Assembly: GCF_001571145.1 (NCBI RefSeq)
Contig: NZ_BCTF01000005.1
Span: forward strand, 1-64,000
Length of the DNA: 64,000 nt
Source: Hydrogenophaga flava NBRC 102514
Lineage (GTDB): Bacteria; Pseudomonadota; Gammaproteobacteria; Burkholderiales; Burkholderiaceae_C
Reading direction: 5' to 3'
In this document: positions 7,250 to 46,181 of the stretch, one piece after another
How the letters are laid out: the number at the start of each line of letters is the position of its first letter
Position numbering within the stretch: position 1 is the first letter of the stretch
Translations under genes and position numbers: made by a program
Notes under the pieces: model-generated
What the model was told of the DNA's origin: nothing
Database searches by the model: none
Seen by the model: the letters and a program-made list of their open reading frames with translations, nothing else

Positions 7250-7301
7250 GCGGGCAGTTTATCTGCGCCGCTGCCGCGGGGACTCAGGATCGCGCGGCAC
7301 A

Positions 7302-7330
7302 AAAAAAACCCGGCCCACAGGGCCGGGTTA
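7302..7330 (-). terminator. Rho-independent terminator
   Basis: AACCCGGCCC (7308-7317) and GGGCCGGGTT (7321-7330) form a perfect 10-bp stem with a 3-nt loop. On the minus strand this is followed by an unbroken T-run (complement of 7302-7309). It would end a minus-strand transcript coming from the 7502-8632 gene or from the 170-nt stretch in between. Confidence 0.85.
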
Positions 7331-7446
7331 GGAAGCCTTTTTGCTGTCACACACTAAGGCACCCGCTCAGGGAGGAAAAGCGGGGAGCGGTCCAAGGACG
7401 CGCTCGGGACTGATGTTACAACAAATCACATTGGATGTGAAGCGGA

Positions 7447-43439: not shown

Positions 43440-44366
43440 TTACAGGCGCGTGGCGATGGTGGAGAAGCCGTCGGCGCGCGAAGCCACGGGCTGCGGGATG
43501 GCCGAGCCGCTGACCGGCAGCACCGGGAACAGCGCGTTGATCTGGCCGGTGCCGCTGGCGCCGAAGTACGGCGTGACGATCTCGGCCTGGCCGGTGTATT
43601 CGCTCCAGCCCAGCACGCCGAGCATCATGGCCGTGTCGTGCATGAAGCCTTCGCCGTGGCCCTTGGCGGCGTACTCGGGCAGCATCTCGCAGAAGTCCTT
43701 CCACGCGCCGGCCTGCCACATGCGCACGACCTCGTCGTCCAGGTGCTGCAGGAAAGGGCTCCAGACCTTGAACGCGAATTCGGGCGCCAGCCCGTTCTGC
43801 GCGAAGCGGTGGCTGAGCGAGCCGCTGGCGAGGAAGGCGACGGTGCCGTCGTAGTGGTCTTCCACGGCCTTGCGCATGGCCCAGCCCAGGCGCGCGCTGT
43901 CGTTGAGGTAGTGCGAGGTGCACAGCACCGAGACCGACACCGCCTTGAAGTGCTGGTCGGCGTTCATGTAGCGCATGGGCACGAGGGTGCCGTATTCGGG
44001 CTGCAGCGTGGTGGCGTGGTGGGCCAGGGTTTCGACACCGTGTTCGCTGGCGACTTTCGCCAGCAGTTGGCCCAGCTCCGGGTTGCCGGGGATGGCGTAG
44101 CCCATGTTGCTGATGAAGTGGGGCAGCTCGTTGCTGGTGTAGGTGCCCTGCCAATGCTCGGCGCAGTTGAGGTGGTAGGTGGCGTTGACGAGCCAGTGGG
44201 TGTCGAAGACGACGATGGTGTCTACCCCCAGTTCTTTGCAGCGGCGCGCGATTTCCTTGTGGCCGTCGATGGCGTCCTGGCGGGTACCTTTGCGCGGGCC
44301 GTCAAGCTCGCTGAGGTACATCGAGGGGACGTGGGTGATCTTGCCGACCAGTGCTACTTTGCCCAT
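43440..44366 (-). CDS. hpaD: 3,4-dihydroxyphenylacetate 2,3-dioxygenase
   Basis: A 308-residue LigB-type (class III) extradiol dioxygenase that opens the ring of homoprotocatechuate to 5-carboxymethyl-2-hydroxymuconic semialdehyde. The start MGKVALVGKITHVPSMYLSEL and the VVFDTHWLVNATYHLNC and GSLSHRF segments agree closely with E. coli HpaD; the histidines there are the Fe ligands and acid-base residues. It is not related to the catechol dioxygenase at 22411. A 339-nt gap with palindromic repeats separates it from hpaE. Confidence 0.94.
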   Translation of the reverse strand: MGKVALVGKITHVPSMYLSELDGPRKGTRQDAIDGHKEIARRCKELGVDTIVVFDTHWLVNATYHLNCAEHWQGTYTSNELPHFISNMGYAIPGNPELGQLLAKVASEHGVETLAHHATTLQPEYGTLVPMRYMNADQHFKAVSVSVLCTSHYLNDSARLGWAMRKAVEDHYDGTVAFLASGSLSHRFAQNGLAPEFAFKVWSPFLQHLDDEVVRMWQAGAWKDFCEMLPEYAAKGHGEGFMHDTAMMLGVLGWSEYTGQAEIVTPYFGASGTGQINALFPVLPVSGSAIPQPVASRADGFSTIATRL

Positions 44367-44414: not shown

Positions 44415-44516
44415 GAAGGCGAGGTGGGTGGTATACCTCCGCTCATGTCCCCCGGGCTTTTCTGCGCAAAGCCCTCCTCCTTTACTTCGCTGCGGCACAC
44501 CACCCACCTCGCCTTC
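44415..44516 (-). repeat. Palindromic element, unit 1 (minus orientation)
   Basis: A 102-nt unit. Outer arms 44415-44437 and 44494-44516 form a 23-bp stem with two exceptions, both G-U wobble pairs in RNA. The enclosed core (44438-44493) is 56 nt. Read on the minus strand the core starts GCAGCGAAGTAAAGGAGGAG, passes through a 19-nt inner hairpin (arms GGCTTT/AAAGCC), and ends CGGGGGACATGAGCGGA. The first 20 and last 17 core positions are identical in unit 2. It lies in the gap between hpaE and hpaD. Confidence 0.85.
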
Positions 44517-44564
44517 TCTCGCTGCGCATCGGTGCTCGAACAGTGGAGTGCCCACATCACTTCT

Positions 44565-44670
44565 GGCTTGGAGGATCGGGGTACCCGGTGCAGCGAAGTA
44601 AAGGAGGAGAAACGGGCAAAGCCCGTTTCGGGGGACATGAGCGGAACCGGGTACCCCGGTCCTCCAAGCC
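44565..44670 (+). repeat. Palindromic element, unit 2 (plus orientation)
   Basis: A 106-nt unit with outer arms 44565-44589 and 44646-44670 forming a 25-bp stem whose only exception is one G-U wobble. The core (44590-44645) is 56 nt as in unit 1, with the same first 20 and last 17 positions. The 19-nt inner hairpin differs in sequence (AAACGGGC/GCCCGTTT with an AAA loop) but keeps length and pairing. The outer arms share no sequence with those of unit 1. No coding capacity of note. Confidence 0.85.
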
Positions 44671-44705: not shown

Positions 44706-46181
44706 TCACACACCCCAATGAGGAATGTGGTGCGACCCCATGGACACCGCCACATTCTTGGGCTCAAGGAACACCTCGTAGCTCCAGGTACCGCCCTCGC
44801 GCCCGGTCCCCGATGCCTTGGTGCCACCGAACGGTTGCCGCAGATCCCGCACGTTCTGCGAGTTCACGAAGCACATGCCCGCTTCCACCGTAGCGGCGAC
44901 GCGGTGCGCCTTGCCGATGTTCTCGGTCCAGACATAGCTCGACAGCCCGTACTGGATGTCGTTGGCAATGCGGATCGCGTCCGCCTCGTCCTTGAACGGA
45001 ATCAGGCAGGCGACGGGGCCGAAGATCTCGTCCTGCGCGATCTTCATTCGGTTGTCCACGTCGGCAAACACCGTCGGCCACACGTAGTTGCCAGCCGCCA
45101 CATGCGACGGCAGCTCGGCCGCATAACTCGGCCGGTCCAGCCCGCCGCACAACATCGTCGCGCCTTCCTTCGGCCCCAGATCGATGTAGCTGCGCACCTT
45201 GGCCAGGTGGGCCTTGCTGATCATCGGGCCGATGGTGGTCTTCTCATCCAGCGGGTCGCCCACCACGATGCGCTTGGCGCGCTCGGCGAATTTGGCGGCG
45301 AAGTCGGCGTAGATGCTCTGCTGCACCAGGATGCGCGAGCCGGCGGTGCAGCGCTCGCCGTTGTTGCTGAAGATCATGAAGAGTGCGGCATCGAGCGCGC
45401 GGTCCAGATCGGCGTCGTCGAAGATCACGAACGGGCTCTTGCCGCCCAGCTCCATGCTGAACTTCTTCAGGCCCGCGGTCTTGACGATGCGGTTGCCGGT
45501 GGCGGTGGAGCCGGTGAAGCTGATGGCGCGCACGTCGGGGTGGGCGCACAGCGGCTCGCCCGCTTCCTTGCCGAAGCCGTGCACCACGTTGAGCACACCG
45601 GCCGGGATGCCGGCTTCCAGCGCCAGCTCACCCAGGCGCGCGGCGGTCAGCGGGCTGAGTTCGCTCATCTTCAACACCGCGGTGTTGCCGAAGGCCAGAC
45701 ACGGCGCGACCTTCCAGGTGGCGGTCATGAAGGGCACGTTCCACGGACTGATGAGCGCACACACACCGACCGGGTGGAACAGTGTGTAGTTCAGGTGCGT
45801 GGGCGTGGGGTAGGTGTGGCCGTCGGTGCGGGTGCACATCTCGGCGAAGTAATAGAAGTTGTCCGCCGCGCGCGGGATCAGCTGTTTGCCGGTCTGCGCG
45901 ATCACCTGGCCCGTGTCTTCGGTCTCTGTCTTCGCGATCTCGGGCACGTGTTTCGCGATCAGGTCGCCCAGGGCGCGCACCTTCTTCGCGCGCTCGGTCG
46001 CCGGCAGGCCGGCCCAGGCGGGAAAGGCATCCTTCGCGGCCTGGACCGCGGCGTTGACCTCGGCCTCGGTGCCCGAGGCCACCTCGGCCAGCACGCCCTG
46101 CGTGGCCGGGTTGATCGTTTCAAAGTAGTCGGAGCCGGCAACGGTCTTGCCGTTGATGAGGTGGTCGATGCGTTGCGTCAT
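44706..46181 (-). CDS. hpaE: 5-carboxymethyl-2-hydroxymuconic semialdehyde dehydrogenase
   Basis: A 491-residue NAD-dependent aldehyde dehydrogenase that oxidises the HpaD ring-fission aldehyde to 5-carboxymethyl-2-hydroxymuconate. The base glutamate is in SMELGGKSPFVIF, the nucleophile cysteine in NNGERCTAGSRI and the cofactor motif is SPWNVPF. The start at 46181 overlaps the stop of hpaG2 (ATGA) and gives the normal length; the frame is open upstream but overlaps hpaG2. Confidence 0.93.
   Translation of the reverse strand: MTQRIDHLINGKTVAGSDYFETINPATQGVLAEVASGTEAEVNAAVQAAKDAFPAWAGLPATERAKKVRALGDLIAKHVPEIAKTETEDTGQVIAQTGKQLIPRAADNFYYFAEMCTRTDGHTYPTPTHLNYTLFHPVGVCALISPWNVPFMTATWKVAPCLAFGNTAVLKMSELSPLTAARLGELALEAGIPAGVLNVVHGFGKEAGEPLCAHPDVRAISFTGSTATGNRIVKTAGLKKFSMELGGKSPFVIFDDADLDRALDAALFMIFSNNGERCTAGSRILVQQSIYADFAAKFAERAKRIVVGDPLDEKTTIGPMISKAHLAKVRSYIDLGPKEGATMLCGGLDRPSYAAELPSHVAAGNYVWPTVFADVDNRMKIAQDEIFGPVACLIPFKDEADAIRIANDIQYGLSSYVWTENIGKAHRVAATVEAGMCFVNSQNVRDLRQPFGGTKASGTGREGGTWSYEVFLEPKNVAVSMGSHHIPHWGV

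Follow-up and report, generated by a model that had tools for sequence, protein, structure and literature searches.

The named repeats nearest to the element described here are REPIN and the Beta-proteobacterial repeat element BRE. REP and REPIN sequences are defined by a tag, GTAG or CGTC, located at the hairpin foot. Integron attC sites carry RYYYAAC and GTTRRRY boxes and are read by structure as a folded single strand, the stem sequence being variable. BRE (PMC3110155) is a repeat of 75-91 bp, arranged in head-to-tail tandem arrays and aligned over its full-length sequence.

We analysed a stretch of 64,000 nt of Hydrogenophaga flava NBRC 102514 (contig NZ_BCTF01000005.1, positions 1 to 64,000), referred to as the window, in which two hairpin units are located between hpaE and hpaD. 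Both genes are encoded on the minus strand within a 4-hydroxyphenylacetate pathway cluster, hpaE being the gene upstream of the element and hpaD starting 48 bp downstream of the end of unit A. The features are as follows:

43440..44366, minus strand: hpaD, 3,4-dihydroxyphenylacetate 2,3-dioxygenase (TIGR02298, 438 bits)
44415..44670: whole element between hpaE and hpaD, two divergent units, 256 bp
44415..44516, minus strand: unit A, outer arms 44494-44516 and 44415-44437 (23 bp with two G.T), core 44438-44493
44474..44493, minus strand: left end of the unit A core, GCAGCGAAGTAAAGGAGGAG
44455..44473, minus strand: inner hairpin of unit A, GGCTTT...AAAGCC
44438..44454, minus strand: right end of the unit A core, CGGGGGACATGAGCGGA
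44517..44564: spacer between units A and B
44565..44670, plus strand: unit B, outer arms 44565-44589 and 44646-44670 (25 bp), core 44590-44645
44590..44609, plus strand: left end of the unit B core, the GCGAA part of which pairs with the right end and in which AAGGAGGAG is the conserved purine loop
44610..44628, plus strand: inner hairpin of unit B, AAACGGGC/GCCCGTTT
44629..44645, plus strand: right end of the unit B core
44706..46181, minus strand: hpaE, 5-carboxymethyl-2-hydroxymuconate semialdehyde dehydrogenase (TIGR02299, 791 bits)

Sequence, inverted-repeat and motif scans reproduce the two units as described in the initial annotation, i.e. cores of 56 nt each with identical 20-nt and 17-nt ends, inner hairpins of 19 nt in both units differing in sequence, and outer stems of 23 vs 25 bp with unrelated sequences, in which the only non-Watson-Crick pairs are G.T, two in A and one in B (by eye). 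The 20-nt motif has two matches in the window vs 0.00 expected from 100 shuffles; the 17-nt motif, searched with up to three mismatches, is not significant alone as 10 of 100 shuffles reach two matches, and both of its window copies are exact. The constrained fold resides on the minus strand in unit A and on the plus strand in unit B. The folding z-scores of these strands are -9.1 (A) and -9.4 (B) as RNA and -7.1 and -9.8 as DNA, those of the opposite strands -6.6 and -9.8 as RNA and -6.0 and -8.5 as DNA. As the opposite strands also fold well, folding energy alone cannot identify the strand and other evidence is required.

In an ungapped alignment of 54 units, drawn from a pairing-filtered set and including several hpa-locus units of different congeners, 34 of 40 tested pairs vary on both sides. 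The covariation score is 0.740, whereas shuffling gives 0.173 on average and slid partners reach no more than 0.133; paired cells amount to 88.7% vs 60.2%, and the structure string used contains an additional outer pair that does not form in 50 of the 54 units. The stems of other copies thus covary, and the proposal of the initial annotation that a conserved loop with covarying stems reflects a selected fold or hairpin-recognised mobile DNA is strongly supported by many copies and by one orthologous locus. Among 177 non-redundant units the first 20 pairs of the stem contain 355 G.T vs 28 A.C, showing that the strand bearing AAGGAGGAG is the strand that matters; this count covers 325 of 334 units, nine having been dropped by a filter scoring G.T as paired, which slightly biases the ratio. 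A similar G.T-counting pairing filter underlies the core-pairing counts and the sense/antisense comparison in tandem gaps given below.

Each unit is composed of an outer stem, 22-27 bp long in 222 of 277 units, a conserved short helix with tandem G.A, a conserved internal loop rich in purines (AAAGGAGGAG / CGGGGGAC) as well as a free inner hairpin. The core ends had been taken for conserved single strands; their conservation holds, but they are not fully single-stranded, since the ends pair as GCGAAGT/ACATGAGC with tandem G.A and A.G (209 and 220 of 280 non-redundant units). Natural variants replace the tandem G.A by Watson-Crick pairs and thereby destroy the ATG, namely GCGAAAT/ACATTCGC in 36, GCGGGGT/ACACCCGC in 3, GCGACAT/ACAGTCGC in 3 and GCGGCAT/ACAGCCGC in 3 of the 280 units, numbers in which variants are over-counted as units with differing cores were never merged. 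Beside the tandem G.A, compensated changes from C-G to T-A occur in 17 and from A-T to G-C in 37 units. The inner helix is not always intact, the core C-G pair that forms the second of the GC step being broken in 20 of 280 units. A translation start formed by the ATG and AAGGAGGAG is not supported by the wider set: ATG is present in 187 of 280 units, otherwise replaced by ATT (46), ACG (33), AGC, AGT, ACC and others, and it is lost in variants keeping the pairing, so that a translated small ORF with conserved Shine-Dalgarno sequence and ATG was rejected.

The purine loop hardly varies: in the middle, A stands opposite G in 260, G opposite A in 18, G opposite C in 1 and A opposite A in 1 unit, and G never opposite G. 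In two units (L019 and L176) G.G is replaced by A-T, and from these we favour antiparallel pairing over a G-quadruplex as the probable state of the four GG runs. A kissing interaction between the A and B cores is disfavoured as the cause of the conservation, because the two cores at one locus can belong to different types. In three loci of two genera (L007, L309 and L360) a different palindromic insert of ~70 bp is found at one common core position, flanked by GGGGGA and CATGAGCGG (by eye); in L007 its centre is CAAACAGTCCAGTGGACTGTTTG.

Some part of the window stretch is matched by 64 of 67 genomes of the genus, and both units are kept in 28 aligned congener loci at hpaE-hpaD, counted with no pairing filter and leaving out L223 (mapped, long) and L222 (fragment). 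Across these 28 loci the mean pairwise identity is 0.90-0.96 for the core ends, like that of the coding flanks (0.86 and 0.91), and 0.56-0.62 for outer arms and inner hairpins, not far from the 0.47-0.57 of intergenic DNA and spacer; the spacer itself (44517-44564) reaches 0.544 and is not above other intergenic DNA. Pairing of the outer stem persists in 599 of 616 cells in B and in 577 of 595 cells in A (~97%), the exceptions being 43 G.T and 0 A.C in B and 69 G.T and 2 A.C in A, in total 112 vs 2. As units A and B are placed on opposite strands, a strand-wise mutation bias cannot account for both G.T biases. The core conservation at this orthologous locus exceeds what would be expected of a passive mobile relic and points to a probable function in place.

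The A and B alleles are mosaic with respect to the flanking-gene tree, which makes exchange between congeners likely and means that the 28 loci are not independent. Of 18 further congeners 17 could be anchored, showing six empty sites, four with scars or lacking a unit, six with B only and one with A only (by eye); one of the six B-only sites keeps the stem of A without the core. The unit antisense to the operon is equally constrained and is the survivor in six of these seven one-unit sites, which are not independent. The locus thus combines long residence with single-unit loss, and copies are dispersed inside some genomes: in G338 several whole-pair copies resemble one another and have recognisable outer ends, some of them with an interrupted or altered unit A; G075, G122 and G335 contain copies sharing a unit with recognisable ends in differing surroundings.

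The own genome carries five copies of the exact 20+17 core and ten of a slightly shorter pattern, and a covariance model built from the 54 ungapped units finds 20 matches there, unit B having the top score of 113.9 bits. Searching the core ends across genome samples that include the own genome, as the initial annotation had proposed, showed that 55 of 399 genomes at family level carry the exact core, and pattern or model are present in 17 of 399 genomes at order level, in 4 of 274 at class level (one being weak, E 2.8e-5) and in 7 of 249 at phylum level, rates that are not strictly comparable because three different patterns and one model were used across the ranks. Of the phylum-level matches G1251 is due to chance and lacks a hairpin, and the remaining six belong to the same class. 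Hydrogenophaga, Rhodoferax, Variovorax, Rubrivivax, Ideonella, Sulfurisoma, Luteimonas and Pseudoxanthomonas are among the matches listed, which include Xanthomonadaceae copies. A phage origin is disfavoured, viral contigs yielding no match and the plasmid search four weak records, three of them replicons >1 Mb.

With Rfam 15 (4227 families) at curated score the only match in the window is anti-hemB RNA (RF02837) at 7299-7386 on the minus strand (66.5 bits, cut-off 49.5), outside the units. Over the units there are 19 sub-threshold matches, i.e. 18 miRNA models and Deinococcus Y RNA, the best with 29.6 bits against a cut-off of 73, in agreement with the earlier impression of no named family. 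Rfam and the open-access papers searched, subscription papers being outside this search, gave no family match, and a 15-nt core string was absent from these papers. The family, distributed in Burkholderiales and Xanthomonadaceae, appears to be unreported.

Neighbouring pairs of units at <300 bp are divergent in 99 of 103 distinct cases (107 of 111 before merging identical ones), with cores a median of 94 bp apart in neighbouring pairs and 85-97 bp apart in 72 of the 99 divergent pairs. The same orientation is seen in 1 of 103 distinct pairs, and head-to-tail arrays of the BRE type were rejected on this ground, the L388 case being counted in addition. This locus (L388 740-1200, G1201), from a more distant genome of the same class, contains three consecutive units (-,-,+) whose stems are long (by eye). 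Single units make up 75 of 145 non-redundant elements outside the hpa locus. The flanking genes are ordinary: in a scan of 121 of 270 candidate flanking proteins (<=480 aa) the commonest Pfam family occurs in 8 of 121, arguing against a fixed neighbour gene, and no transposase is found among the 25 commonest of 162 Pfam families.

Taken together, we show the fold and its strand, and we tentatively explain them by a REPIN-like paired mobile or structural element recognised as a folded single strand, either RNA or ssDNA, a reading in which our confidence comes near to even without reaching it. The two units, divergent around a spacer of ~45 bp, would form a small non-coding paired hairpin element. 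A trans-acting factor would most likely recognise the folded single strand by its loop and shape and not by stem sequence, leaving the stems free to drift while pairing holds. The factor is presumably a protein; mobility may have been the original purpose, the pair moving in a REPIN-like manner, and the element may have a beneficial or tolerated role at the 3' ends of genes. We lean slightly towards ssDNA as the recognised strand because the constraint at one locus is equal on both strands regardless of transcription direction; such equal constraint favours ssDNA or a trans-acting product over a cis-acting mRNA signal. The strong tolerance of G.T without A.C speaks for RNA. Several results count against this reading: no mobilising gene was found, no target-site duplications were noticed in an unsystematic look, viral contigs gave no match, the cores at the orthologous locus are conserved beyond expectation for a passive mobile relic, and one core pair is broken in 20 of 280 units.

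A possible, albeit doubtful, extension is that the elements represent a new class, according to which each strand of one locus would by itself encode one and the same structured single-stranded molecule (RNA or ssDNA), read via the purine loop and the helix geometry, with free stems, long kept regardless of transcription direction and served by a dedicated machinery that would be neither RAYT nor integron integrase.

Rather doubtful, in our view, is a structured RNA element acting in transcripts from either strand, e.g. as bidirectional 3' processing, stability or attenuation signal, the divergent pair ensuring one functional unit whichever direction is read. Consistent with it, G.T is tolerated about like a pair and A.C is not, the tandem G.A and the conserved internal loop resemble features of RNA, and the elements prefer 3' ends: with gene calls from a GC-frame heuristic, and after dropping elements close to a locus end or overlapping a predicted ORF, the 145 elements lie in 75 tandem, 58 convergent and 12 divergent gaps compared to a local background of 194/57/63, i.e. 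enriched in convergent and rare in divergent gaps. Lone units in tandem gaps show a weak lean to sense (21 sense, 14 antisense; P 0.31). Against this stands the comparison of 39 tandem pairs, in which sense and antisense units are preserved about equally (the sense unit is the poorer one in 13 pairs and the antisense unit in 14; G.T:A.C 73:4 vs 76:4; mean core mismatches 1.41 vs 1.82), as well as the equally constrained antisense unit at the hpa locus and its survival at the one-unit sites. The fold quality is independent of flanking-gene transcription, which argues against a simple mRNA element, and an element of the own-strand mRNA is disfavoured since sense and antisense units are equally good. 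The intergenic region of the window including the spacer holds no promoter-like or terminator-like match, disfavouring a promoter in the unit region; a T run after the stem is absent in 275 of 280 units, with T4 or longer in 5 of 280 and in none of the window region, arguing against an intrinsic terminator.

Membership in a REP/REPIN-RAYT system, i.e. mobilisation by a REP-associated tyrosine transposase, is improbable. The divergent pairs do conform to an inverted hairpin pair with a short spacer, they are intergenic and chromosomal, and the own genome has one RAYT-like gene. This single RAYT-like protein (L224 1141-1833, G000:C9) scores 66 bits to NF047646 at a cut-off of 80 and has HFQ in place of the expected HxH motif. 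Against membership, no tag is found at a fixed place (GTAG in 6 and CGTC in 16 of 280 units), the stems are free in sequence, and G338 with its many similar copies has no RAYT match. The link to a REP transposase considered in the initial annotation finds no support: RAYT is near-universal with matches in 347 of 399 family genomes, made up of 49 of the 55 that have the exact core and 298 of the 344 that lack it, the six unmatched exact-core genomes, G338 among them, being those absent from the list of matches, and none of the 31 RAYT loci examined (the own one and 30 others, a minority of RAYT loci) contains a unit. The main text of a paper on GTAG/CGTC sequences (PMC3733652) contains none of six terms for Burkholderiales and genera of this order.

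Still more improbable are attC-like recombination sites flanking or receiving gene cassettes. The units of one pair enclose a type IV restriction (Mrr) gene (L042 600-2017, G280:C12; gene at L042:876-1811 between units A and B), absent in the orthologous L166 where the units are 136 bp apart, and a second divergent pair encloses a gene-sized stretch of ~720 bp (L387 1190-1990, G020:C14) with an ORF that is hydrophobic-looking by eye. Just these two cases were noticed, with no excised or swapped cassettes shown, and both attC boxes occur together in none of the 280 units and one box in 20. Least credible is that intrastrand template switching keeps the palindromes perfect as a mutational process without selection, which would suit long, near-perfect palindromes and the deletions inside hairpins of relatives but conflicts with a strand-specific G.T bias that is opposite on the two strands of one locus, with coordinated loop changes and with the stem length distribution.

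The structural covariation is very clear, and the combination of free stem sequence and fixed loop provides an experimentally clean route to the binding factor. The two-strand constraint raises the question whether such bacterial repeats are selected as RNA or as single-stranded DNA.

Compared to known systems, anti-hemB RNA is likewise structured and present in the same window but belongs to another covariance model, which has no match at the units. Like attC sites, the element would be recognised by structure as a folded single strand with variable stem sequence, but it has no attC boxes and no cassette array was seen. With BRE (PMC3110155) it shares being a mostly intergenic repeat of Betaproteobacteria including Comamonadaceae, and it differs by divergent pairs with unrelated stems, a distinction drawn from the description of BRE and not from its sequence. 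From REPIN it differs by the missing GTAG/CGTC tag, a unit of ~105 nt that combines two hairpin segments with a large conserved internal loop, stems differing freely inside one genome with ~20 matches there and no RAYT link seen; in common with REPIN/REP-RAYT (PMC3116915) it has short hairpins arranged as inverted pairs around a spacer, intergenic, chromosomal and dispersed, with single units occurring too.
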